Below the pieces are notes generated by a model. That model was not told the DNA's origin. It saw only the letters and a list, made by a program, of their open reading frames with translations, and searched no databases. A DNA stretch of 28,375 nt from a virus: positions 1-28,375 of the IMG/VR virus record IMGVR_UViG_3300005830_000065. The stretch is one strand, 5' to 3'. The translations under genes were made by a program, and so were the position numbers. Below are positions 804 through 16,910 of this stretch, one piece after another; the first letter of the stretch is position 1, and the number at the start of each line of letters is the position of its first letter.

Positions 804-1153
804 AAGAAATCAAATTCAGATACCACGCTTTTAATAAGCATTTCAGCGAGGAACATTTTGAAACACTTACTGATGAGATGCTTATAAACAGAAAAATTCC
901 ATCATGGATATTGAGTGACAATTGCGATGTATTAGACAAATTGATGTTCACTGGATTGAGAGATAAAAGCGGGAAAGAAATATATGAGGGCGATTGCCTT
1001 GCAATAGACGGAAAAGAATATGCTGTATTTTATGATGACGAGAATGCCTGTTTTTTTCTGCACGATAGTGAGTCTTTTAAAAACAAACTTTTCAGTGACG
1101 TTGACAAGTCGAAATTGACGATCACCGGAAATATTTTCAACATAAAAGCATGA
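800..1153 (+). CDS. YopX-like phage protein
   Basis: This 117-residue protein starts MKEIKFRYHAF. It has the central signature FTGLRDKSGKEIYEGD (about residues 50-66) and ends with an ITGNIFN motif, the layout of the YopX family of phage proteins (M-R-E-I-K-F-R start, TGLKDKNGKEIYEGDI core, VIGNIYENP tail). The family is widespread in temperate phages and is structurally a small beta-rich fold; its role is not established. Start and stop overlap both neighbours by four bases, placing it in the early operon with the downstream helicase. The assignment rests on the motif match and is fairly secure; function stays unknown. Confidence 0.8.
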   Translation: MKEIKFRYHAFNKHFSEEHFETLTDEMLINRKIPSWILSDNCDVLDKLMFTGLRDKSGKEIYEGDCLAIDGKEYAVFYDDENACFFLHDSESFKNKLFSDVDKSKLTITGNIFNIKA

Positions 1154-3711
1154 AGATTTTAATAAGAAAAACCGGCAACAATGAGATGATCGTAAATTTC
1201 AATTATCATCCGGTCGCCGTTGAAAAAATAAAGAGCCTGCCGTACAAAACCCGTAAGTGGGACAAGATTGCGAAAGTATGGGTTGTTGATCTTTCACAAC
1301 TTGAAAATATCTACCGACTTTTCAGTGGTTGCCAGATAGATGCTGATGATGAATTGATCGAACTTTATTCCAAGAAATCAGAGACGCGGGAACGGATCGC
1401 GGTCGAAGTGAAAGAATTGATTAAGAACGTTCCTGACCGCGTGAACGGATACGAGCTTTTTATGCACCAAAAGGAAGCCGTGCCGCAAATGTTGCTGGCG
1501 AGAAAATGTATATTGGGGCACGAACAAGGTCTTGGAAAAGCACAGCCGTTTGATGCAAAAATCTTGACTATTTGTGGTTGGAAAAAAATGGGAGAAATAA
1601 AGATTGGAGATTCAATCATAAATGCAGAAGGAAAAGAATCAAAAATAACTGGAGTGTTTCCGCAAGGAAAAAAGAAATGCTATAGAGTAATTTTCAATGA
1701 TGGATTTTCATGTGAATGTTGTGATGAACATTGGTGGATGGTTAAGAATCATAACATTACTTGTAAAAGAAAAATATTAACTACGAATGAAATTCTTGAA
1801 GATTTGAAAGATAAATCTGGTGTATCGAAATGGACTATACCAATAATCAAATCAGTTACTGAATTTTCAGAAAATAATCTTCCACTCCATCCTTATGTTC
1901 TCGGTTTGTTGATTGGAGACGGTGGCTTTTCAACTGATTCAGTCATATTGAGTCTGTCAGAAGAAAAAAATGAAGTAATGGAAACTGTAAAAAGCATTAT
2001 CGGAAATGATAATGTTAGAAGACGAGAGAGTGGAGTTGATTGGGGATTGGCTGGAGTTTCATCAATTTTAAAAGAACTTGATTTGCAGGGGAAAAGATCA
2101 TTTGAAAAGTTCATTCCTGATATTTATAAATATTCTTCATTTGAAAACAGACTTGCTTTGCTTCAAGGATTGATGGACACAGATGGTTATTATCTTGACA
2201 GTTCTCACAAGGAAAAGCAAGGACAGCATCTTGAATATTCCACAAGTTCGCCGAGACTTGCAGAAGATTTTTGCGAACTGATTTGGTCTTTCGGCGGAAC
2301 GGTAAGAAAACGTTCAAAGATACCTTTCTACACAACGAATGGAGAACGCAAAGCTGGAAAGAGATGCTATTCTTTGACGATCTGTTTACCGAATGAAATA
2401 GAACCATTCAGATTATCAAGGAAGAAGAACGGTTATAAAGGGCGATTAAAATATTTTCCAAGCAGATATATTTCAAAGATAGAATATGTCGGGATGAAAG
2501 AGATGCAATGTATTTCTGTAGATTCTCCTGACAATCTTTATATAACCGATAATTATATTGTCACCCACAATACCATAACGGCATTGGTTGCATCGAAATT
2601 GCTTGAAGATAGAAATGTCCATGTCATCGCACCAATCTCAGTTCATTCAAGTTGGAAAAGTTTCGCCGATGAATGTGGAGTGAAATTGAGCGGGCTGCAT
2701 TCGTGGGCAAAGATACCGAAAGATATTCCAGAAAGAACAATTCTAATTGCCGACGAAGTTCATAAGGCGCAGGGTGGAGTAACCACGCAGCGCGGTAAGG
2801 CGTTTTTGAATCTCGCCCAAAAAGCGGAGTTCCTTTTCCAACTTTCAGGGACTCCGATGAGAAATGACCGAGCATTGAACATTTTCCCGTTACTTGAGGC
2901 CTGCAATCATCCAATCGCTCAGAATTTTTTCTCGTTCCGCGAGCGTTATTGCATCAAGCGTGAAATTTATCGAAAAGGAAAAGAACCGATAGCGGTTTAC
3001 GACGGAATACAGAATGAAGGCGAGTTAAGGAACAGAATCGGAGACGTGCTTTTCGTGAAGAAGAAAATAGACTGCTTGGATTTGCCGGAGAAAATTTACC
3101 AGTGGCGACATGTCGAGAATTGCTTGACCGGCGAGTTGGCAGACGATCTTGAGCAGCTTATCGAAGAGTATCTTAACGAGAAAAGTTGGAAGGAAGATTT
3201 TTCTGACTCATATTTCGACGAATTAAGACGCAGGGCGAAATTCCAAGTTATTCGCCGGCTGACTTCTCTCGCCAAAGTGGATGGGACGTGTGACATTGCG
3301 CAAGACATTCTCGATCAAGGCGAGAGCGTGGTTATCTGCACGTCATTTTTGGAACCGTTGCACAAGATTGCAGAAAAATTCAAAGATTATGGAGTATCGA
3401 TAATTCACGGTGGAATCAAAGCGGAAGATCGCGGCCAGATGGTGAAAGATTTCCAAAGTGGAAAAAAAAGAGTTTTTGTTTTCACCATCGAGGCCGGTGG
3501 AGTCGGCATAACGCTAACGAAAGCATCATATATTATCATGCACGACCGGACGTGGGTTCCTGGTGATGTTGACCAGGCTATTGATCGAGTCCACAGAATA
3601 TCTCAGGACAAGACGGTTTTTGTCACGTCAGTTTCAGTGAACCGCATGGATTACATTATCGACAAAGTTCTTTCACGAAAGAGCAAGTACATCAACAGGG
3701 TGATTTATTAA
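1150..3711 (+). CDS. SNF2/SMARCAL1-like DEAD/H helicase interrupted by an intein
   Basis: This 853-residue precursor would splice to a 509-residue superfamily 2 DNA-dependent ATPase. Residues 12-60 resemble the HARP-type N-terminal module of SMARCAL1-like annealing helicases. The Walker A motif HEQGLGK/T is split after Lys130 by a 344-residue intein (131-474), and Thr475 is the first C-extein residue. Motif II is DEVH at 535-538 (IADEVHKAQGG). A motif III-like SGTPMRND follows. The C-terminal lobe has VVICTSF (motif IV), the AGGVGITLT region (motif V) and QAIDRVHRISQ (motif VI, 809-819). Family members remodel forks or anneal strands, so a replication or recombination role is likely. Without splicing the P-loop is broken and ATPase activity should be absent. 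The start overlaps the previous stop as ATGA. The intein portion is visibly poorer in GC than the exteins. Confidence 0.93.
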   Translation: MKILIRKTGNNEMIVNFNYHPVAVEKIKSLPYKTRKWDKIAKVWVVDLSQLENIYRLFSGCQIDADDELIELYSKKSETRERIAVEVKELIKNVPDRVNGYELFMHQKEAVPQMLLARKCILGHEQGLGKAQPFDAKILTICGWKKMGEIKIGDSIINAEGKESKITGVFPQGKKKCYRVIFNDGFSCECCDEHWWMVKNHNITCKRKILTTNEILEDLKDKSGVSKWTIPIIKSVTEFSENNLPLHPYVLGLLIGDGGFSTDSVILSLSEEKNEVMETVKSIIGNDNVRRRESGVDWGLAGVSSILKELDLQGKRSFEKFIPDIYKYSSFENRLALLQGLMDTDGYYLDSSHKEKQGQHLEYSTSSPRLAEDFCELIWSFGGTVRKRSKIPFYTTNGERKAGKRCYSLTICLPNEIEPFRLSRKKNGYKGRLKYFPSRYISKIEYVGMKEMQCISVDSPDNLYITDNYIVTHNTITALVASKLLEDRNVHVIAPISVHSSWKSFADECGVKLSGLHSWAKIPKDIPERTILIADEVHKAQGGVTTQRGKAFLNLAQKAEFLFQLSGTPMRNDRALNIFPLLEACNHPIAQNFFSFRERYCIKREIYRKGKEPIAVYDGIQNEGELRNRIGDVLFVKKKIDCLDLPEKIYQWRHVENCLTGELADDLEQLIEEYLNEKSWKEDFSDSYFDELRRRAKFQVIRRLTSLAKVDGTCDIAQDILDQGESVVICTSFLEPLHKIAEKFKDYGVSIIHGGIKAEDRGQMVKDFQSGKKRVFVFTIEAGGVGITLTKASYIIMHDRTWVPGDVDQAIDRVHRISQDKTVFVTSVSVNRMDYIIDKVLSRKSKYINRVIY
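1540..2571 (+). other. Class 3 (WCT) intein with LAGLIDADG homing endonuclease
   Basis: The element encodes 344 residues beginning with Ala1 rather than Cys/Ser and ending THN before Thr+1. Block B reads CCDEHWWMV, giving His64 (B:10) and Trp66 (B:12). Block F reads MQCISVD, with Cys324 where other inteins carry Asp (F:4). Block G reads YIVTHN, with Thr342 at G:5, His343 and Asn344. A Trp/Cys/Thr triad with no N-terminal nucleophile is the published hallmark of class 3 inteins, which start splicing by attack from the block F cysteine. Two LAGLIDADG motifs sit in the middle: VLGLLIGDGG (about 1891-1923) and LLQGLMDTDGYY (about 2158-2193), so it is probably a full homing intein. Lower GC than its host gene suggests separate ancestry (line 1741-1800 has about 13 G/C of 60; extein line 3121-3180 about 30). 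Confidence 0.92.
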
Positions 3712-5198: not shown

Positions 5199-5400
5199 AT
5201 ATGTCAATGCACAGAAGCTTGAAGCCGCGCAGAAAAAAGAAATCGAAGTCGTTTCATTCAAGTTCATGTCGTGTCCGAAGCACGGCATGGTTGACCGTGG
5301 CAGTTTGATTTATCGCAAGGGCGCGATCATCGGTTGCCTTTCGTGCATGGCCAATGTCAACCTGGCGGGTTTGATCATGGTGAAGAAAAAGGGAAAGTAA
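5173..5400 (+). CDS. Small zinc-ribbon-like protein, 75 residues
   Basis: The start is set at ATG 5173 (MKEFQRWCKYV). A possible earlier GTG at 5122 lies deep inside the preceding gene and has no support. The N-terminal 30 residues form a charged helix. The C-terminal part has CPKHG and, about 20 residues later, GCLSC, a Cys-x2-His/Cys-x2-Cys arrangement typical of a small zinc ribbon. The TAA stop overlaps the next ATG by one base. Function unknown; possibly nucleic-acid binding. Confidence 0.65.
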   Translation: MKEFQRWCKYVNAQKLEAAQKKEIEVVSFKFMSCPKHGMVDRGSLIYRKGAIIGCLSCMANVNLAGLIMVKKKGK

Positions 5401-5642
5401 TGACTATTTCACATGCAAGACAACTAAAACGTGGTGATCAAGTTGTCGCGTTTAACGGCAACGCTACTCTTTACGCACGAGTGGTAAAAACAGAGCCTAA
5501 AAGAAACGCGATATTGATAACTGCGCGTTATCTCAAAAAAGACGGGAAGCTTGGCGAGATGGAAAGAACGCATCGCGGCTTTCTATGGTACGGTGATTTT
5601 CCGTCTGATAATTTTCCGAAATGTGAGGAGATTGGTTTATGA
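5400..5642 (+). CDS. Hypothetical small beta-barrel-like protein, 80 residues
   Basis: The start is ATG 5400, sharing a base with the previous stop. Upstream in-frame codons lie inside the preceding gene and are not used. The product (LKRGDQVVAFNGNATLYARVV, then KRNAILITARY) has alternating hydrophobic strands like an SH3- or Tudor-type small barrel with a turn after GDQV. It has no catalytic motif. Its stop overlaps the exonuclease start as ATGA, so it is translationally coupled to it and may be a nucleic-acid-binding partner; that is inference. Confidence 0.65.
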   Translation: MTISHARQLKRGDQVVAFNGNATLYARVVKTEPKRNAILITARYLKKDGKLGEMERTHRGFLWYGDFPSDNFPKCEEIGL

Positions 5643-6388
5643 GACTTAAACTCTGTAGACCATTGGTCAGCATCGACATCGAGACCACCTCCCTCGACGT
5701 GAACGCGGCTAGAATCGTGCAGATCGGTGTCAAGAAAATTATGCCGGACGGCTCAACCAGCGTTTGGTCGTCACTGGTGAATCCGACCGTTTCGATCACC
5801 AATACCGAGGCGCATGGCATCACCGATGAGATGGTGAAGGATGCGCCGACGTTCGCCGAGCTCGCCAAGATGGTGATGGAGATGATCGACAGCAGCGACA
5901 TTTCCGGCTACAACATTCTGAGTTATGACATGCCGGTGCTGTTCAATGAGTTCATGCGGGCAGGAATAACGTGGGATTATCACAACACGTGGTTCATCGA
6001 CTCCTGCAACATCGCGCGGCGCAAGGAGCCGAGAAATTTGAGTTGGGCGACGGAATTTTACTGCGGCATGAAACTTGAGAACGCTCATAACGCAATGGCC
6101 GATACGGAGGCCGCGGCAAATGTGCTTTTGGCGCAAGTCGAGAGATACACCGACATCGGAGAAGATGTTGCGGCGCTGGCAATGTATAGCAACTACGATA
6201 AGCCATTGCTGGACTTCTCCGGAAAATTCAAAACCAACGAGAACGGAGAAATTATAATAAATTTTGGTAAGAAACATTTTGGTGAGAGGGCACTTGATCA
6301 CCAAGATTATTTGCGATGGATGTTGGAAGAAAATTTTGCGGCGGACACAAAAGCGGTGATCAAAAAACATTTAGGAATTGAGTCATGA
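5639..6388 (+). CDS. DnaQ-like DEDDh 3'-5' exonuclease
   Basis: This 249-residue protein has all DEDDh motifs: Exo I with Asp13 and Glu15 (SIDIETTS), Exo II around Asp97 (GYNILSYDMPVL), and Exo III with His150 and Asp155 (HNAMADTEAA). The family removes nucleotides from 3' ends using two metal ions, as polymerase proofreading subunits or RNase T/Exo X-type processing enzymes. About 80 residues follow the catalytic core (from about 170) with no known domain. A GAGGAG site lies about 10 bases before the ATG, inside the preceding gene. Its stop overlaps the helicase start (ATGA). The operon context of helicase, methyltransferase and resolvase points to replication or recombination work on phage DNA. 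Confidence 0.92.
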   Translation: MRLKLCRPLVSIDIETTSLDVNAARIVQIGVKKIMPDGSTSVWSSLVNPTVSITNTEAHGITDEMVKDAPTFAELAKMVMEMIDSSDISGYNILSYDMPVLFNEFMRAGITWDYHNTWFIDSCNIARRKEPRNLSWATEFYCGMKLENAHNAMADTEAAANVLLAQVERYTDIGEDVAALAMYSNYDKPLLDFSGKFKTNENGEIIINFGKKHFGERALDHQDYLRWMLEENFAADTKAVIKKHLGIES

Positions 6389-7779
6389 GCGGAACAAACG
6401 GAAAACTCCAGATACCTTACGATGAGTTTATCGCCAAGAAATCGCATTTGAAAAACGGCGGTGGTTTTTCTCCAATATTCATGCCTGACTGCATGTTTGA
6501 TTTCCAGAAATATTCTGTTGAATGGAACTTGATCAATGCAAGGTCTGGATTATTTCAGGCGCCAGGAAGCGGCAAGACGTTGGAGGAGCTTGTGTGGGCC
6601 GAAAATATCGTTCGGCATGCTAACAAAAATGTCTTAATAACTACGCCTTTGGCAGTGTCGTTTCAAACCGTGCAAGAAGGGGAGAAGTTCGGAATAGAGT
6701 GTAAAAGGTCAATGGATGGTAAGCCGGCGGGAAAGATAACTATCACGAATTACGAAAAACTTCATCTATTCGACCCGAATGATTATGTTGCAGTGGTTGG
6801 AGATGAAGTTAGCCGCGTTAAAAACGCGCAGGGAAAAACAAGAAAATTTTTCACAGAATTTGTCAAGAAAATTCCGTATCGTCTTGGAGCCACGGCAACG
6901 CCATCCCCTAATGATTACATGGAATTGTTGACTATCTCGGAATGGCTTGGATATATCGGTTTCCAAGACGGCTTGAAAATGTTTTTCAAGAACGATAAAA
7001 ACAATTCAAGCACAGGACGTTATTACGGTAAAAAAATGGAGTGGAGGTTTAATGGATATGCTGAGATACCGTTTTGGAGATATATTGCATCTATCGCTTT
7101 GGCGATGCGTATGCCGTCCGATCTTGGATTCAGCAACGATGGATTCGTGTTGCCTCCGTTGATTGAAAATGATCATATCATTGAAGCAAAGAGTTTAGCG
7201 GACGGATATTTGTTTGAATTGCCGGCCATAGGATTACGTGAACAACTTGCCGAGCAGAAACGAACGATAAAAGAGCGTTGTGAGAAGGCGGCGGATTTGT
7301 GTAATGTGCACAAAGAACCGTCTCTTATCATGTGCAACCGCGATAAGGAAGGTGACTATCTTGAAAAGATAATCGACGGCGCGGTGCAGGTGAGCGGGAG
7401 AGACAGCGATGAGGCCAAAGAAGAAAAATTCATGGCATTCGTGAGAGGAGAAATAAAAAAGATGATCACGAAAAAAAGAATCGGGGCTTTCGGTATGAAT
7501 TTTCAACATTGTGCCCATATTGTTAATTTCGTAGATAACAGTTATGAGCAGTATTTTCAGTTGAAACACAGATGCCATCGTTACGGACAGAAAAAAACCG
7601 TCGTGGTTGACAACGTGACCACACAGGGAGGAAAGATGATGATGCTGAATGTGTCAGAGAAGGCGAAGCGGGCAGACATCATGTTCAATAATTTGATCGC
7701 GGAGATGAGAAATGCAAGAAGAATAGAAAACAAGGTCGAGTTCAACAAAGAAATGGAGATTCCGGCATGGATAAGATAA
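6385..7779 (+). CDS. SF2 (SNF2-like) DNA helicase
   Basis: This 464-residue ATPase has Walker A APGSGKT (Lys64), motif II VVGDEVSRVKN (Asp140-Glu141), motif III LGATATPSPND (about 168-178), and a C-terminal lobe with the motif VI-like QLKHRCHRYGQKKTVVV (about 392-408). This is the compact SNF2-like helicase type often found beside methyltransferases in phages. It is much shorter than the first helicase in the window and has no intein. It overlaps the methyltransferase by 13 bases, so the pair is probably translated together. They may act together in DNA modification-linked processing or in replication; which one cannot be read from sequence. Confidence 0.9.
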   Translation: MSGTNGKLQIPYDEFIAKKSHLKNGGGFSPIFMPDCMFDFQKYSVEWNLINARSGLFQAPGSGKTLEELVWAENIVRHANKNVLITTPLAVSFQTVQEGEKFGIECKRSMDGKPAGKITITNYEKLHLFDPNDYVAVVGDEVSRVKNAQGKTRKFFTEFVKKIPYRLGATATPSPNDYMELLTISEWLGYIGFQDGLKMFFKNDKNNSSTGRYYGKKMEWRFNGYAEIPFWRYIASIALAMRMPSDLGFSNDGFVLPPLIENDHIIEAKSLADGYLFELPAIGLREQLAEQKRTIKERCEKAADLCNVHKEPSLIMCNRDKEGDYLEKIIDGAVQVSGRDSDEAKEEKFMAFVRGEIKKMITKKRIGAFGMNFQHCAHIVNFVDNSYEQYFQLKHRCHRYGQKKTVVVDNVTTQGGKMMMLNVSEKAKRADIMFNNLIAEMRNARRIENKVEFNKEMEIPAWIR

Positions 7780-8867
7780 CAGACACATCGAGATTTAAAA
7801 GTGAAAAAGTCAAATCAGATATTGAAGCTATGGAAGTGATGAATTTGGGGAAAGTGATTGATCAAAAAATAACTGAAAATTATTGTCTATACAACGGTGA
7901 CGTCAAGTTGGTATTGAGGAACATCCCAGATGGAAAAGTCGGTTTTTCGATATATAGCCCACCTTTCGCAAAAAAAAGCGGCGGCGCCTTGTATTCATAT
8001 TCATCAAGCGAATATGATTTGTCGAATTGCAAAAGCTATGAGCAATTTTTTGAGCAGTACGAATACATCGTCAAAGAGATTCATCGCGTTACTATGCCGG
8101 GAAGATTGTCGGCAGTGCATTGCATGGACGTTCCGAACAGCAACAGCGGCGGGGATTACTTGACAGACTTTCCAGGTGATATCATTCGTCTGCACGAAAG
8201 ATGTGGATGGAAGTTCAAAGCGCGTCATGGCATTTGGAAAGAGCCGCTCGGCGTCCGCAATAGAACAATGGCAAAGGACTTGGCGCACAAAACCATTGTG
8301 GAAGATTCGGCAAATGTAGGAGTCGCTTCGATGGATCAGTTGCTCATATTCGTTCGTGACGGAAAGAACAAAGTTCCGATAGCGCATCCGCATGCCTTGC
8401 TTAAATATGCCGGCTCGCAAGAGATACCGAAAGACATTTTGCGATACAAAGGCTATCAAGGCAACCAGATTGAGAATCGCTACTCGCATTGGATTTGGCA
8501 ACAGTATGCAAGTTCTTTCTGGACGGATGTTCGTCTTGAAAGGGTGTTGCCATACGTTGAAGCGCGCGAAGAAGAAGACGAGAAACACGTTCATCCTCTT
8601 CAACTCGATGTTTACGACAGGGCAATAATTTTACGTTCCAATCCAGAAGAAATCGTTCTTGAGCCGTTCATGGGAGTCGGCAGTGGGCTGTATTCAGCGA
8701 TAAGACTCGGACGAAAAGCGATAGGTATCGAATTGAAGAAATCGTATTTTTCTCAAGCTTTAAAAAATATCGAGTCGATAAAAACGAAACCGCAGAACGA
8801 GAACGGCGATTTGTTTGCAGATTTGACCGACGAAGACATTGACAAAATCAGCGAGCAAATATTATGA
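7767..8867 (+). CDS. Beta-class DNA methyltransferase (N4-cytosine or N6-adenine)
   Basis: This 366-residue protein has the catalytic motif IV IYSPPF (Ser64-Phe67) before the SAM-binding motif I EPFMGVGSGLYSA (about 299-311). IV before I is the order of beta-class enzymes. SPP[YF] catalytic motifs are common in N4-cytosine methyltransferases, but N6-adenine specificity is also possible. The middle 200 residues should hold the target recognition domain. No restriction endonuclease gene is adjacent, so it is probably a solitary phage enzyme for protecting its DNA or for regulation. It is flanked by short overlaps with the helicase (13 bases) and nucleotidase (ATGA). Confidence 0.9.
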   Translation: MDKITDTSRFKSEKVKSDIEAMEVMNLGKVIDQKITENYCLYNGDVKLVLRNIPDGKVGFSIYSPPFAKKSGGALYSYSSSEYDLSNCKSYEQFFEQYEYIVKEIHRVTMPGRLSAVHCMDVPNSNSGGDYLTDFPGDIIRLHERCGWKFKARHGIWKEPLGVRNRTMAKDLAHKTIVEDSANVGVASMDQLLIFVRDGKNKVPIAHPHALLKYAGSQEIPKDILRYKGYQGNQIENRYSHWIWQQYASSFWTDVRLERVLPYVEAREEEDEKHVHPLQLDVYDRAIILRSNPEEIVLEPFMGVGSGLYSAIRLGRKAIGIELKKSYFSQALKNIESIKTKPQNENGDLFADLTDEDIDKISEQIL

Positions 8868-9391
8868 TCAAAAACAAAACCATACTCCTTGATATTGATG
8901 GTGTGCTTGCGGATTTCGTTGGAGCTACGCTTGCGTTACTTGGACGGCAAGAAGTTTTTGTCGATCGATGGAACTTCTATACGCAACTTGGTATGACATC
9001 GAATGAATTATGGAAAAGGATAGACAGCGCTGGTCATGACTTTTGGGATAACATGCCGATGTTGTCGTGGGCGCATGAAGTTATTGCCATTGTTGACAAC
9101 CAAAAGACGCTTCTTTGCACGTCGCCATCTCTTTCAGATGGTTGCAACTCCGGCAAAGTAGCGTGGATAAGAAAGAACCTTCCAGAATTTTCACGTAGAT
9201 TCATTATCACACCGTGCAAGCACTTGTTGCGCGGAGATTTTGTGTTGATAGATGATAGCGATGAAAACGTTGAGAAGTTCAAAGAAATTTGGCAGCCAGC
9301 GATTTTGTTTCCGCAGCCGTGGAATAAGAATCGTGAGCATTGTCATGAACGGATTGAATATTTGAAGCGTAAAATAGGAAAATTTTTATGA
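8864..9391 (+). CDS. HAD-family 5'(3')-deoxyribonucleotidase-like phosphatase
   Basis: This 175-residue protein has HAD motif I as LLDIDGVLAD (nucleophile Asp10, acid Asp12), motif II around LLCTSPS (Thr86/Ser87), a candidate motif III lysine (Lys119 in TPCKHLL) and motif IV LIDDSDENV (Asp130/Asp131). Size and motifs match the NT5C group, which dephosphorylates deoxynucleoside monophosphates. In a phage it would shape the dNTP pool or recycle nucleotides. The substrate is not determinable here; other small HAD phosphatases are possible. Four-base overlaps on both sides place it firmly in the operon. Confidence 0.85.
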   Translation: MIKNKTILLDIDGVLADFVGATLALLGRQEVFVDRWNFYTQLGMTSNELWKRIDSAGHDFWDNMPMLSWAHEVIAIVDNQKTLLCTSPSLSDGCNSGKVAWIRKNLPEFSRRFIITPCKHLLRGDFVLIDDSDENVEKFKEIWQPAILFPQPWNKNREHCHERIEYLKRKIGKFL

Positions 9392-11839: not shown

Positions 11840-12487
11840 ATGGAAAACGGCGCATTCAAAAATCGGATAGTCGGGCACGGGGTCAAGCCGGCTTCGCAAT
11901 TCCAAGCGAATCCTCTCAATTGGAGGCAACACCCGCAAGAGCAGAGACAGCTTATCAATTCCGTATTGAATGAAATCGGATGGGTGCAGAATGTAGTAGA
12001 GAATATTTCTACGGGGCATTTAATCGACGGCCACGAGAGAGTATGGCAGGGATTGCAGAATGGTGATGCCGAAATCCCATACATACAAGTCGATCTTTCG
12101 CCAGACGAAGAAAAGACCATGCTTGCCTTGCTCGATCCTATCTCAGCGATGGCCTACACGGACAGGGAGAACTTGAAGGAATTGCTTGAGGGGATAACGG
12201 CGATGGACGCGAATATAACGAAATTTTTGAGCGAGATGGCGGAGCGCGAAGAAATTATTCCATCATCTGAAATATTTGATCCAAGTAAATTACCAGATGT
12301 TTTTTCTGGACCAGAAAAATCAGCTTTTTTGATTTATATAACATTTGAAGATTACGAAAATTTTAAAAATACTGTTGAATGCCTGACGCATGGGAAAAGA
12401 AAAGTACCAAATGAAAAAACCAGCAATGTCGTTATTGATTCAAAAGATTATGAATCATTTTGGAGAGATAAATTAAATGGAACTTGA
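11840..12487 (+). CDS. ParB/Srx-like domain protein with composite C-terminus
   Basis: Residues 15-100 form a ParB/sulfiredoxin-type domain: a target-like N-terminus, then HLIDGHERVWQGLQNG (Asp63, His65, Arg67, the conserved DGHxR), then PYIQVDLSPDEEKTMLALLD. Such phage domains often accompany DNA-modifying enzymes; related proteins bind or hydrolyse nucleotides or nick DNA. The C-terminal 75 residues (ITFEDYENFKNTVECLTHGK region) are unrecognised. Base composition falls sharply near codon 138 (about 12255), so the C-terminus shares the low GC of the two genes downstream. It starts 24 bases after a terminator and overlaps the radical SAM gene by 11 bases. AAGG lies just upstream of the ATG. 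Confidence 0.8.
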   Translation: MENGAFKNRIVGHGVKPASQFQANPLNWRQHPQEQRQLINSVLNEIGWVQNVVENISTGHLIDGHERVWQGLQNGDAEIPYIQVDLSPDEEKTMLALLDPISAMAYTDRENLKELLEGITAMDANITKFLSEMAEREEIIPSSEIFDPSKLPDVFSGPEKSAFLIYITFEDYENFKNTVECLTHGKRKVPNEKTSNVVIDSKDYESFWRDKLNGT

Positions 12488-13805
12488 AAAGGAATATTAC
12501 AACTCGCCAAGATGGTCTTGGGAAATTCTTGATTGCGCCATGCCAATGACGTTTGATACTTATTCAAACTGTGCGCATCAATGCGTTTATTGTTTTGCTT
12601 ATTTCCAGCGCGCACTTGGGGCATCGGCAAATGATTATTTGCACCACAAAGTAAAATCAGTAAATGTTGAAAAAGTAAAACGGATGTTTTTAGAACCGGA
12701 TAAATACGCTGGTTCATTTGCTTGGTATATTAAAGACAGAAAAGTGTTGCAATGGGGAGGTCTTTCTGATGGTTTTGATTGGTATGAACAGAGATTTAAG
12801 AAATCATTGGAATTGTTAAAATTTTTCAATGAAATAGCCTATCCAATTTCCATTAGCACCAAAGGGGTATGGTTTTTAAATGATGAAGAGTATTTAAAGG
12901 AATTCAGCGGTGCAAAAAATATCCAAATGAAATACAGCATTATAACTACCAATGATGAACATGCCAAAAAACTTGAAGCAGGGACGCCAACACCAAAGGA
13001 AAGATTTTATGCTTTAAAAAAGTTAAAAGAGATTGGCGTTGCTGTTACGACATTGAGGTTTCGCTCATACGTTTTAGGGGTATCAGATTTATGCGTTGAT
13101 GAAATGTTTGCAATGGCACACGATGCGAAAGTTGATAGCATAACGACTGAAATGCTTTGTCTTGAAAGCCGTTCATCAGGAATTGCGGAAGAAAGATTTA
13201 AGGTTATATCTAAAATTTGTGGATTTGATGTATTCCCGTTTTACAAAAAGAATTCTATGATTCGGGCTGGATTGTTACGTTTAAATTACGATATTAAGCG
13301 TAGCCACATAGAAAGAATGCAAAAGCTTTCTGAAAAATATGGTATTCCGTTTTTTGTAAGTGATGCTCATCATAAAGAAAAAAGTTGTGGAACTGGCTGT
13401 TGCGGTTTGCCGGAAACTGGGCCACTTTCAAATATTGCGCGCGGACAATTTGCCGAAGCTATACAGATCGCTAAAAAAAATGGTTATGTTTATTGGAAAG
13501 ATATATCTGAAAAAGCAGAACCATTAAAAGAAATTCCATTTGTCGGGGCGGAAGGATTTAATACAACTGGTTCATTATTCAGAGCACAAAGAAAATATCA
13601 TACGATGTATGATTACATGCTTGATGCGTGGAATGATATAAAATCGGCAATGTCACCAGCGAGATATTTTGGTGGTGCATTAGTCCCGGGCGGGAGTGAC
13701 GAAAATGGAAATGTTTTTTATCTTTACAACAAACCCTTCATTCAAGATGGTTACAAAGTAAAATCATCAGAAGAACTTCATCAAATAATAAAAAATCAAA
13801 AATAA
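12477..13805 (+). CDS. Radical SAM enzyme, spore-photoproduct-lyase-like
   Basis: This 442-residue enzyme has the radical SAM cluster motif Cys32-x3-Cys36-x2-Cys39 (NCAHQCVYC). The preceding MTFDTYSN and the following aromatic residues are typical of the spore-photoproduct-lyase-like branch. QWGGLSDGFD, ISISTKG and SIITTNDEHAKK follow as further SAM-barrel strands. A second Cys cluster, CGTGCCG (about 302-308), could bind zinc or an auxiliary iron-sulfur cluster. The family makes a 5'-deoxyadenosyl radical to modify or repair substrates, and the substrate here is unknown. I recall similar proteins beside ParB-like genes in other phages. It overlaps the ParB-like gene by 11 bases and is two bases from the region of the FkbM gene, so the three are likely one module acting on DNA or a linked substrate (inference). 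Confidence 0.88.
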   Translation: MELEKEYYNSPRWSWEILDCAMPMTFDTYSNCAHQCVYCFAYFQRALGASANDYLHHKVKSVNVEKVKRMFLEPDKYAGSFAWYIKDRKVLQWGGLSDGFDWYEQRFKKSLELLKFFNEIAYPISISTKGVWFLNDEEYLKEFSGAKNIQMKYSIITTNDEHAKKLEAGTPTPKERFYALKKLKEIGVAVTTLRFRSYVLGVSDLCVDEMFAMAHDAKVDSITTEMLCLESRSSGIAEERFKVISKICGFDVFPFYKKNSMIRAGLLRLNYDIKRSHIERMQKLSEKYGIPFFVSDAHHKEKSCGTGCCGLPETGPLSNIARGQFAEAIQIAKKNGYVYWKDISEKAEPLKEIPFVGAEGFNTTGSLFRAQRKYHTMYDYMLDAWNDIKSAMSPARYFGGALVPGGSDENGNVFYLYNKPFIQDGYKVKSSEELHQIIKNQK

Positions 13806-13822
13806 GATTGGAGTTTAATAAA

Positions 13823-14509
13823 TTGAATATTAAAGGTATTACCGTTAATGGTATAAACTTTGAAATTAGGGAAAATACTACTGATGAAAAAGTTGTAGAT
13901 GAAGTTATTAGGAGAAATACATATTTGAAAAATGGAGTTGATGTTGAAAGAAATGAAATTTGGCTTGATTGCGGAGCTAATATTGGTACTTTTACATGTC
14001 TTGCATGCTCATTGGGAGCATTTGTCATTGCTTATGAGCCAGAAAAAGAAAATTTTGAACGATTGAAAAGGAATATTTTTATAAATGGATTTTCAGTCAA
14101 AGAGATAAGAAGTGCTGTTGTGGCTGGCAAAGAAAAATCAATGTATTTATTTATCTGTAAAGGTGAATACAATAAGTATCGTCATACGTTGAATGTAGTA
14201 AGAGGGAGGAAGTTTGTAAGTATATCTTGTGTTAATTTTGATGATGTTTTGAATGAAAATATTTCTGGAATAAAAATGGATATAGAAGGAGAAGAGTTAA
14301 AAATACTTGATCAACAACATAATTGGTATAATGTAAAAAAGATGGTTATGGAATATCATTTTGATTTTGATAGATATGTTGAAAATTTTTATGAACGAAT
14401 GAATAGACTTAAAGAAGCTGGTTTTATTGTTAATTATAGCAAAATAAAAGATGGTTTGAAACGATATGATTTTTATCCAGCTTCTAAAATTGTATATTGT
14501 ACACGTTGA
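13823..14509 (+). CDS. FkbM-family SAM-dependent methyltransferase
   Basis: The protein has SAM-binding motif I WLDCGANIGTFTCLA followed by VIAYEPEKENFERLKRNI, then the family's second landmark IKMDIEGEELKIL and a C-terminal MVMEYHFD. This is the FkbM pattern, a family that O-methylates sugars, polyketides and other small molecules. TTG at 13823 is chosen because GGAG (13810-13813) lies nine bases upstream; TTG at 13808 would add five residues. It is the AT-richest gene of the window. In a phage it could methylate a modified nucleotide made by the radical SAM enzyme, or alter host surface glycans; the first is favoured only by gene order. Confidence 0.85.
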   Translation: MNIKGITVNGINFEIRENTTDEKVVDEVIRRNTYLKNGVDVERNEIWLDCGANIGTFTCLACSLGAFVIAYEPEKENFERLKRNIFINGFSVKEIRSAVVAGKEKSMYLFICKGEYNKYRHTLNVVRGRKFVSISCVNFDDVLNENISGIKMDIEGEELKILDQQHNWYNVKKMVMEYHFDFDRYVENFYERMNRLKEAGFIVNYSKIKDGLKRYDFYPASKIVYCTR

Positions 14510-14782: not shown

Positions 14783-15361
14783 ATGGGAAAAAATACAAAA
14801 CTTACTAAAGAGATTCAAACTGCCATGACTGAGGGAATACGGCTTGGCTTGAAGATACATGACGTTTGTGCTCTTGCTGGAATAACAACCACAGCTCATT
14901 ACAATTGGTTGAGCAAGGGAGAGAATCCTAATCCTAAGCCAGTTTATCGTGAATATCGTGATACTATAAAAAAGGCAAAGCCGCAACGTAAACGGCATAT
15001 ACTCGCCAGGATATATCAGGCAGGGCAAGGCGGGAAAATAATCAAAGAGAAAAGAACAGTCAAAAGACAGACTGAATCTGGTGATATTATCATTGAAGAG
15101 ACCATCACTGAAAAAGAATTGTTGCCAGACTGGAAAGCTGATGCTTGGATGTTGGAGCGCGGTTATCCGGATGAATTTGGCCGGAAGTATCAAGTAGAGT
15201 TAAAGGATTGGCGGAAGGATGCACAGGATGCAGGTATCGAACCGGAAGAAGTAGAAAATGCCTTCAACAGAATGGTTGATGAATTTGCCAGAAGCATCCC
15301 GCGAGGCCATGATGAAAGAAGCCTTGCAGGAAGCCAAGAGACGAACGGCAGGCTTGATTAA
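14783..15361 (+). CDS. terS: Terminase small subunit-like HTH protein
   Basis: This 192-residue protein has an N-terminal helix-turn-helix (LKIHDVCALAGITTTAHYNW, about 23-42), a long charged helical middle (PQRKRHILARIYQAG), and a DWKADAWMLERGYPDEFGRK segment (about 117-136). That last motif is common in HTH-type phage terminase small subunits. An AAAAGGAAAA site precedes the ATG. The terminase large subunit overlaps its C-terminus by 104 bases. The expected role is to recognise pac/cos DNA and load it on the large subunit. The assignment comes from motif style plus position directly before terL. Confidence 0.8.
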   Translation: MGKNTKLTKEIQTAMTEGIRLGLKIHDVCALAGITTTAHYNWLSKGENPNPKPVYREYRDTIKKAKPQRKRHILARIYQAGQGGKIIKEKRTVKRQTESGDIIIEETITEKELLPDWKADAWMLERGYPDEFGRKYQVELKDWRKDAQDAGIEPEEVENAFNRMVDEFARSIPRGHDERSLAGSQETNGRLD

Positions 15362-16910
15362 AAAAAATCCACGATATGAGAGTTTCAAAAAACAATATCG
15401 TAATGATCCGGTTGCGTTTATTCATGATTGCATAGAAGGAATAAAACCGACTTTCTATCAAGATGAAATCGGCGCGAATATAGTAAAGTATAAACGTGAG
15501 GCAGTGCGTGGGCCTCACGTCATTGGAAAGACGGCAATCGCTTCTCTCCTTGTTCATTGGTTCGCATTAAGTCGTGATGGCGAAGATTGGAAGATCATCA
15601 CAACCGCAAGTGTGTGGCGGCAACTTTCAAAATATCTCTGGCCGGAAATTCATAAATGGGCAAGAAAAATTCGGTGGAACAAAATCGGAAGGCAATCTTA
15701 CGATAACAGGCTTGAATTGCAAATGCTTTCACTGAAACTCGGAACTGGCGAGGCCTTTGCCGTCGCCAGCGATAACCACGAGCATATTGAGGGTGCCCAC
15801 GCCGATCACATTTTTTACATATTCGATGAAGGGAAGGCTATTCCCAATAAGACCTGGGAAGCTGCCGAGGGCGCGCTTTCCGGAACTGGCGAAGCTTTCG
15901 CGTTGGCGATCTCGACCCCAGGTGATCCAATCGGTGTGTTTTATGATATTCACAGCAGAAAACGAGGATATGATGAATGGCATGCCACGCACATAACCAA
16001 AGACGATGCGATCAAGTCGGGGAGAATGAGCCTTGAATGGGCAAAAGCAAAAGAAAAATTATGGGGAAGCGAGTCAAGCATATTCAAAAATAGGGTAGAG
16101 GGTGAGTTTGCCGCAGGAGATGAGAGCGGCATCGCACCGTTGTCATGGATTGAGGCAGCCAACGAAAGATGGTGGGCATGGGTAGAAACTGGGCGGATGG
16201 GAAAAGCGGCAGTATTGAGCAGCGACATAGCTGCCGGTGGTAGCAATAAGACGGTGGTGACAGATTTGTTCGAGCAATGCGGCGCCTGTGATTTGGTTTA
16301 CTCGGAATTTGATGAGTTTGACCATAAAAACGAGAAGCGATTCGCTACGGCGCGGACAAGCGCAAGATTGACGGAAAGGGTTACAATCAAGAGCCATTCG
16401 TTAGGAATTATCGTTGATGCTGTAGGCATAGGCGATGGTGTCGCCAGCAATCTTACGCAAAAATTCGGAACAGAAAAGGTGATTGCATTCAAGGGCGGGA
16501 TGGCGGCAGAGCACGAATGTTACGGCAAAAAGGAAAAGATATTTGATGGAACTGGAACTTTTGTTTTCAAGAATCTCAACTCGCTTGCTTGGTATATGCT
16601 TCACGAAAAACTCAATCCAGACAGTCAAATCAAGATAGCGCTTCCGCCGAAAGATAAGCTAACTGGTGATCTCGTGAACCGTCGATACGAAAAAAGGTCG
16701 GATGGCGTGATTGTAGTAGAATCAAAAGAAGAAATGATCAAGCGTGTGAAAGCAGAGATTGACGAAGCAATAACTTCACCAGATGATGGAGACACGGCAG
16801 CAATGGCAATATATGCCTATTATCATGGATTCGATAAAAGTTTGAAGAGCAAGCCAAGCATTGCCGTCATGCCGCGCACGGAGCGGCAGATATATGGAGA
16901 TATGCCATGA
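15258..16910 (+). CDS. terL: Terminase large subunit
   Basis: This 550-residue packaging motor has a Walker A-like RGPHVIGKTAIAS with Lys91, adenine-motif residues upstream (PTFYQDEIG), Walker B HIFYIFDEGKA (Asp190-Glu191), and a coupling-motif-like AISTPGDPIG. The C-terminal RNase H-like nuclease shows Asp323 in LSSDIAAGGSN, Asp387 in IIVDAVGIGDG, and a C-terminal DDGDTAAMAIYA. The ATG at 15258 gives a 104-base overlap with terS; later in-frame ATGs at 15279 and 15309 would shorten the N-terminus by 7 or 17 residues without touching a motif, so the exact start is uncertain. It cuts concatemeric DNA and pumps it into the prohead through the portal encoded at 19039. Confidence 0.93.
   Translation: MPSTEWLMNLPEASREAMMKEALQEAKRRTAGLIKKNPRYESFKKQYRNDPVAFIHDCIEGIKPTFYQDEIGANIVKYKREAVRGPHVIGKTAIASLLVHWFALSRDGEDWKIITTASVWRQLSKYLWPEIHKWARKIRWNKIGRQSYDNRLELQMLSLKLGTGEAFAVASDNHEHIEGAHADHIFYIFDEGKAIPNKTWEAAEGALSGTGEAFALAISTPGDPIGVFYDIHSRKRGYDEWHATHITKDDAIKSGRMSLEWAKAKEKLWGSESSIFKNRVEGEFAAGDESGIAPLSWIEAANERWWAWVETGRMGKAAVLSSDIAAGGSNKTVVTDLFEQCGACDLVYSEFDEFDHKNEKRFATARTSARLTERVTIKSHSLGIIVDAVGIGDGVASNLTQKFGTEKVIAFKGGMAAEHECYGKKEKIFDGTGTFVFKNLNSLAWYMLHEKLNPDSQIKIALPPKDKLTGDLVNRRYEKRSDGVIVVESKEEMIKRVKAEIDEAITSPDDGDTAAMAIYAYYHGFDKSLKSKPSIAVMPRTERQIYGDMP

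Follow-up and report, generated by a model that had tools for sequence, protein, structure and literature searches.

Organization of the cassette

The DNA analysed here, referred to as the window, is the whole stretch of 28,375 nucleotides taken from the IMG/VR virus record IMGVR_UViG_3300005830_000065. Three genes follow one another on its plus strand, with the two terminase genes downstream:

11840..12487, plus strand: ParB/Srx-like protein, 215 aa, with a DGHxR motif
12477..13805, plus strand: radical SAM (rSAM) enzyme, 442 aa, with a CX3CX2C motif
13808..14509, plus strand: FkbM-family SAM-dependent methyltransferase, 233 aa from the first TTG
14783..15361, plus strand: terminase small subunit (phrog_4102, 3.3e-18)
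15258..16910, plus strand: terminase large subunit, conserved downstream context

A preliminary description of this DNA had reported three consecutive genes in this order, the first two overlapping, and the open reading frames were indeed found on the plus strand with an 11-base overlap between the ParB-like and rSAM genes. A ribosome site (GGAGAG) lies 9 nt upstream of the rSAM gene, and a GGAG at 13810-13813 precedes the TTG at 13823 of the FkbM gene, which is probably the actual start of this gene since it has the better ribosome site. Both terminase genes represent conserved context downstream of the cassette and stand outside its chemistry. The GC content of the cassette, 35% versus 45% for the whole window, suggests a recent acquisition.

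The first protein matches ParB and ParB-methylase families of PHROG (phrog_498, 7.3e-16; phrog_620, 1.5e-14), its DGHxR motif reads IDGHERV, and its N-terminal 128 aa share 48% identity with the ParB domain of a Stenotrophomonas phage protein annotated as a DNA methylase; Pfam ParB_N gave no match to it at E 0.1. PHROG matches and motif agree with its earlier description as a DGHxR ParB/Srx-type protein, so that it can be assigned to the ParB/Srx superfamily with a putative ParB N-terminal domain, and it is presumed to be a DNA-targeting or assembly partner. The second protein is a member of the radical SAM superfamily, as indicated by a match to PF04055 (1.1e-10) and by its CX3CX2C cysteines (C32/C36/C39), invariant in 73 sequences of the family described below. 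The third carries an FkbM domain, as shown by matches to both PF05050 (2.2e-14) and TIGR01444 (1.6e-19, 70.8 bits versus a cut-off of 37.7), in line with its earlier identification.

No TET, TAGT (TET-associated glycosyltransferase), ADDT (amino-acid:DNA-transferase), 5hmdU-kinase-like or thymidylate-synthase-type genes were found in the window, and a local TET HMM had no match in its six frames. Apart from the cassette, the phage encodes a conventional DNA modification enzyme, an N6/N4 DNA methylase (7767-8867; PF01555, 2e-19), and immediately 3' of its gene lies a 5'-deoxyribonucleotidase-like gene (8864-9391; NT5C, 2e-13), the product of which could be involved in the trimming of nucleotide pools. 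A helicase ORF of 853 aa (1150-3711), whose residues 105-478 match terminase and primase families, contains at residues 334-390 a LAGLIDADG_3 domain, a segment that is probably an intein.

A viral radical SAM family with similarity to spore photoproduct lyase

The motif pattern CxYC[FY]AY[FY]Q retrieved 13 loci, all of them true relatives of the window's rSAM (full-length or partial, with 36-63% identity), and an alignment-based search found the family in at least 207 IMG/VR viral loci, 80 of which were kept. Only 13 loci were detected in 84,980 bacterial and archaeal genomes. Searches with two members against 50,697 phage records yielded generic matches below 25% identity only; the first phage matches were generic proteins resembling spore photoproduct lyase (SPL) and were dropped. 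Single-sequence searches of viral and genome contigs returned no relatives, the patterns chosen for them being non-conserved positions, and phmmer and profile searches of PDB sequences gave no credible match. Literature searches on radical SAM enzymes together with phage DNA hypermodification turned up nothing about this family, although a 2013 survey of such systems (Iyer et al.) may mention it. As defined by sequence, the window's rSAM founds a new viral family, and its absence from records of phage isolates would explain why it stayed unnoticed.

The predicted rSAM model (pLDDT 93.9, pTM 0.91) has SPL as its best solved fold (Z 20.7, 265 residues, rmsd 2.9), followed by SuiB as the next fold family (Z 16.7), and the region after residue 296 is left uncovered by the SPL match. 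An overall SPL-type fold is thus predicted, and the label "spore-photoproduct-lyase-like" given to the protein in the preliminary description is right at this level. SPL (SplB, PF20903) is likewise an rSAM enzyme, and thymine in DNA is its known substrate. However, the window's rSAM has an extra C-terminal region with a CC motif and four extra conserved cysteines, and the clean HMM of the rSAM family does not detect SPLs.

SPL generates a thymine allylic radical that is quenched via Cys141, Tyr99 and Tyr97, and when Cys141 is missing this radical can be trapped by an external reagent (PMC5368176). A profile alignment of SPL with rSAM (P 8e-4) places Gly95 at the position of Cys141 and Phe40 at that of Tyr99, and these two residues are present in 72/73 and 73/73 rSAM sequences, respectively; the SPL residues for hydrogen return, Cys141 (or an alternative cysteine) and Tyr99, are thus replaced. 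These replacements indicate that the SPL hydrogen-return path is missing in rSAM. Clostridial SPLs are also devoid of Cys141, yet they keep the tyrosine. Having SPL as its best structural match, rSAM could be regarded as an SPL-type DNA-repair lyase, with FkbM acting on an unrelated target and lying next to it incidentally. This is very improbable considering the replaced hydrogen-return residues, the fusion of rSAM to TAGT, and the neighbourhoods with ParB, ADDT and TAGT together with the FkbM-TET operon, all of which are presented in the following sections.

Among the 73 relatives, conserved cysteines beyond the CX3CX2C motif comprise C20 (73/73), C228 (72/73) and the invariant pair C308-C309. 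An extra CxxxCC cluster had been pointed out earlier: its CC pair stands, but its first cysteine, C304, is kept in only 20/73 relatives, and the conserved C20 and C228 had been missed. C20, C228, C308 and C309 would be enough for a candidate auxiliary cluster able to oxidise a substrate radical so that water adds.

Conserved neighbours and exchange of decorator genes

For 55 non-redundant loci with sufficient context, the genes within 6 kb of rSAM were counted. ParB was present in 50 of them, TAGT in 25, a P-loop kinase in 16, ADDT in 11 and GNAT in 9; counted by records, TAGT occurs in 25/46 rSAM records. A common neighbourhood of rSAM homologues, on which the preliminary description had made its proposal depend, is thus strongly conserved and consists of ParB, TAGT, ADDT, 5hmdU-kinase-like and GNAT genes. 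Pfam searches on representatives confirmed TAGT (PF20691) and ADDT (PF18724), and the kinase assignment was weak in those tested (HMUDK, 2.7e-4; Ploopntkinase3, 2.1e-4); the local kinase HMM also recognises a strong Ploopntkinase3 protein of phage Mithril as well as M6 gp54.

ParB lies at most three genes away from rSAM in 39/55 loci, versus 13.8 expected for genes picked at random from these loci and a maximum of 23 loci among 1000 draws. Nevertheless, many of 24 TerL-matched loci without rSAM also carry ParB, so that a nearby ParB gene, taken by itself, was not accepted as specific evidence. In several TerL relatives without rSAM (L118, L121, L122, L125, L128-L130 and L132-L134), ParB is found upstream of the terminase with other partners. 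No TAGT was found in the flanks of the 24 TerL-matched loci, several of these flanks being short. ParB is therefore a general lodger beside the terminase, whereas TAGT goes with rSAM. These data bear on the idea that the genes are just loose cargo near the terminase and have no joint function, which would be in agreement with the AT-rich composition of the cassette and with the occurrence of ParB near the terminase also in loci devoid of rSAM. It is nonetheless extremely improbable, given the number of close ParB-rSAM pairs relative to random draws, the flanks without TAGT where rSAM is missing, and the operon-like gene overlap in the window.

TAGT is fused to rSAM in four lineages, C-terminally in L021, L022 and L024 and N-terminally in L081, L023 being a near-copy of the L022 fusion. 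The grouping of TAGT and rSAM in one cluster was an artefact of these fusions in single-linkage clustering and was resolved into two clusters.

Decorator genes tend to avoid each other at rSAM loci, TAGT being seldom found with GNAT (p 0.003) or kinase (p 0.002) and, only at p 0.05, with ADDT, while kinase and ADDT co-occur (p 3e-6); all these p values are rough because the loci are related. Mapped on the tree of rSAM sequences, the TAGT label must have changed at least 15 times along branches with good support. The clade of the window's rSAM, with six members and a support of 100/100, includes partnerships with FkbM, with GT-B, with ADDT and kinase, or with TAGT, ADDT and kinase. The combination of rSAM with FkbM occurs in only two rSAM lineages, that of the window and that of L006/L009, which sits on a very long branch, and this narrow distribution speaks against the exchange proposed below. 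One conserved rSAM with swapped decorators is what would be expected of an enzyme making a shared intermediate, and decorators swapping at least 15 times while rSAM stays imply that this intermediate is one and the same.

Some loci show additional arrangements. A recurrent trio of kinase-like, cytidylyltransferase-like and TAGT genes near ParB and rSAM (L029, L061, L076, L078, L086, L102, L103 and L105) may serve to attach a CDP-activated group to the sugar. In L049, L050 and L051, the genes ParB, TET, ParB, rSAM, TAGT and a second, SPASM-type rSAM stand in one run, and this coexistence means that TET and rSAM are not strictly interchangeable. In L035, a degenerate S-adenosylmethionine synthetase-like gene (5231-6061) adjoins rSAM, possibly as a SAM supply or as a derived enzyme.

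The oxidiser slot and the proposed chemistry

Hypermodified phage pyrimidines of this kind normally start from a hydroxymethyl group with one of two origins: a thymidylate-synthase-type hydroxymethylase introduces it at the nucleotide level, or the O2-dependent TET/JBP enzymes introduce it in DNA. Relatives of the window's FkbM, compared at 80 loci in IMG/VR viral contigs, are closely linked to the second route: TET/JBP lies within five genes in 69/80 loci and ParB is found in 61/80, usually in the order ParB-TET-FkbM or ParB-FkbM-TET, and 17/17 TETs sampled at these loci match Pfam Tet_JBP. Where the contig runs on, terminase-size proteins come next, and in two annotated reference phages the proteins that follow the FkbM cassette are the terminase. 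The reference cassettes of Pelagibacter phage HTVC112P and cyanophage MED4-117, together with approximately 60 ParB-TET-FkbM cassettes from IMG/VR, resemble the window in the ParB-like gene, a similar gene order and the terminase downstream, and the FkbM proteins of the two phages are 35-37% identical to that of the window (same family). They differ in that an Fe/2-oxoglutarate dioxygenase is encoded where the window has rSAM. The Tet_JBP domain has no match in the window's rSAM, which has the slot alone in common with TET/JBP. The window thus appears to follow the layout ParB-[oxidiser]-FkbM, i.e., ParB, an oxidase slot, a TET-linked FkbM and the terminase downstream, with rSAM placed in the slot. 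The suggestion that this is an undescribed system has to be narrowed accordingly: the cassette is less isolated than thought, since its operon layout is known and common to TET systems, but one enzyme class has been exchanged.

Three types of decorator show this exchange, namely FkbM, ADDT together with kinase, and TAGT. In Mycobacterium phage Mithril the order is TET-ADDT-kinase-TerL, with TET immediately ahead of ADDT and recognised by Tet_JBP at 4.6e-6, a score that does not reach the cut-off set by Pfam; rSAM is found with ADDT and kinase in L013, L021, L022 and L024. In the third case, TAGT, a TET-associated family, adjoins or is fused to rSAM. Other enzymes that might supply a hydroxymethyl group are rare alongside rSAM: among the 46 rSAM records, TET was found in 2, PF00303 in 1, ThyX in 2 and a C5-methylase in 2; since these records are virus contigs of unknown completeness, the absences are soft. 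By comparison, PF00303 is present in seven of eight ADDT phages that lack rSAM, and the remaining one, Mithril, has TET.

By profile, the nearest characterised phage relative of rSAM is gp53 of Pseudomonas phage M6 (P 1.3e-8), annotated as a DNA repair photolyase, which we take to be the rearranging rSAM isomerase of the 5-NedU pathway and not a hydroxylase. This distant relative belongs to a thymidine hypermodification set with ADDT, kinase and a PLP enzyme. The gp53 group is nevertheless distinct, a gp53-like gene and the family rSAM are both present in L071 and L075, and M6 carries a thymidylate-synthase gene whereas the L075 and L071 records do not. An apparent membership of gp53 in the rSAM family (5e-20) was discarded, as the HMM had absorbed the gp53-like proteins of L071 and L075; the clean HMM, built from an alignment without these proteins, scores gp53 at only 12.9 bits. 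Likewise, the window's rSAM is not a member of the gp53 sequence family, gp53-like proteins forming a separate group. The L075 locus carries ParB, a PLP enzyme (52% to gp52), a gp53-like rSAM (42%), ADDT and kinase, and encodes the family rSAM separately; PF00303 was not found in its 39-kb record, so that the family rSAM stands there in the place of the missing hydroxymethyl source.

The profile similarity to gp53 and the co-occurrence of ADDT and kinase genes with part of the family would also fit a later-step enzyme that, like gp53, rearranges a group on hydroxymethyluracil, the handle being provided by the host or by an unseen gene. We consider this unlikely, because a gp53-like gene and the family rSAM are separate in L075 and likewise in L071, the clean HMM barely recognises gp53, most rSAM members pair with TAGT in loci without ADDT (the window's with FkbM), and the handle would be left without a source.

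Taking the context as a whole, the three genes very probably constitute a phage DNA-base hypermodification cassette. Within it, rSAM is probably the maker of a hydroxymethyl-type handle in the place of TET; thymine has a slightly better than even chance of being its substrate, and the chances that FkbM yields a methoxymethyl base are about even. A two-step modification of phage DNA, as first proposed for these genes, is well supported by both the rSAM neighbourhood and the partnership of FkbM with TET/JBP and ParB. That a host target would be modified instead, the alternative offered at the time, appears less likely. In broader terms, and with somewhat less than even confidence, we propose that the rSAM family is an O2-independent counterpart of TET/JBP that converts the thymine methyl group to 5-hydroxymethyluracil and feeds interchangeable decorators (glycosyltransferase, kinase plus amino-acid transferase, FkbM), mainly in phages of anaerobes.

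According to this model, rSAM would bind phage DNA and abstract a hydrogen from a pyrimidine C5-methyl group, most likely that of thymine. An auxiliary Fe-S cluster, with C20, C228, C308 and C309 as candidate ligands, would oxidise the resulting radical and water would add, giving 5-hydroxymethyluracil, the same type of handle that TET/JBP makes with O2. FkbM would O-methylate the new hydroxyl to produce a 5-methoxymethyl base, the ParB-like protein may recruit or position the enzymes on DNA near packaging, and the phage DNA modified in this way could be disguised from host nucleases. We know of no rSAM that hydroxylates a DNA base; if the model is correct, DNA would acquire a chemical handle by a novel, O2-independent route, and the editing of thymine in DNA would gain a new enzyme.

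The gene context demands only a common acceptor, and rSAM could instead install another C5 substituent (by carbon transfer, at another oxidation level, or on cytosine) that still offers a hydroxyl to TAGT, kinase and FkbM. This appears rather improbable: in ViI- and M6-type phages, the pathway leads from 5hmdU via the kinase to further transfer, kinase and further enzymes acting on 5hmdU (PMC6449724), the SPL-type fold acts on thymine, and no C5-methylase was found in 44/46 records, which argues against 5mC as a substrate. C5 handle chemistry on phage DNA accompanied by frequent ParBc genes is also a trait of the CmoX carboxymethylcytosine system, which differs in relying on a cytosine C5-carboxymethyltransferase with carboxy-SAM, versus rSAM in the window, and in which the role of the nearby ParBc genes was called unknown (PMC12783734).

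The named TET cassettes found belong to phages of the aerobes Pelagibacter, Prochlorococcus and Mycobacterium. By record titles, the 13 genome loci of the rSAM family are mostly from Clostridia, Oscillospiraceae, Selenomonadaceae, Bacteroidaceae and Prevotellaceae, which are largely anaerobic. This comparison is suggestive of a split by host oxygen and does not constitute a test of it. The O2-dependent TET/JBP enzymes are not a dependable option for phages whose hosts are strict anaerobes; a radical SAM route to the hydroxymethyl handle would fill this gap, and would explain the occurrence of TAGT, kinase and ADDT genes in phages that have neither of the known routes. One carrier locus of the family, the prophage locus L106 with two ParB genes, a kinase, rSAM and terminase, belongs to the sequenced strain Selenomonas ruminantium S137.
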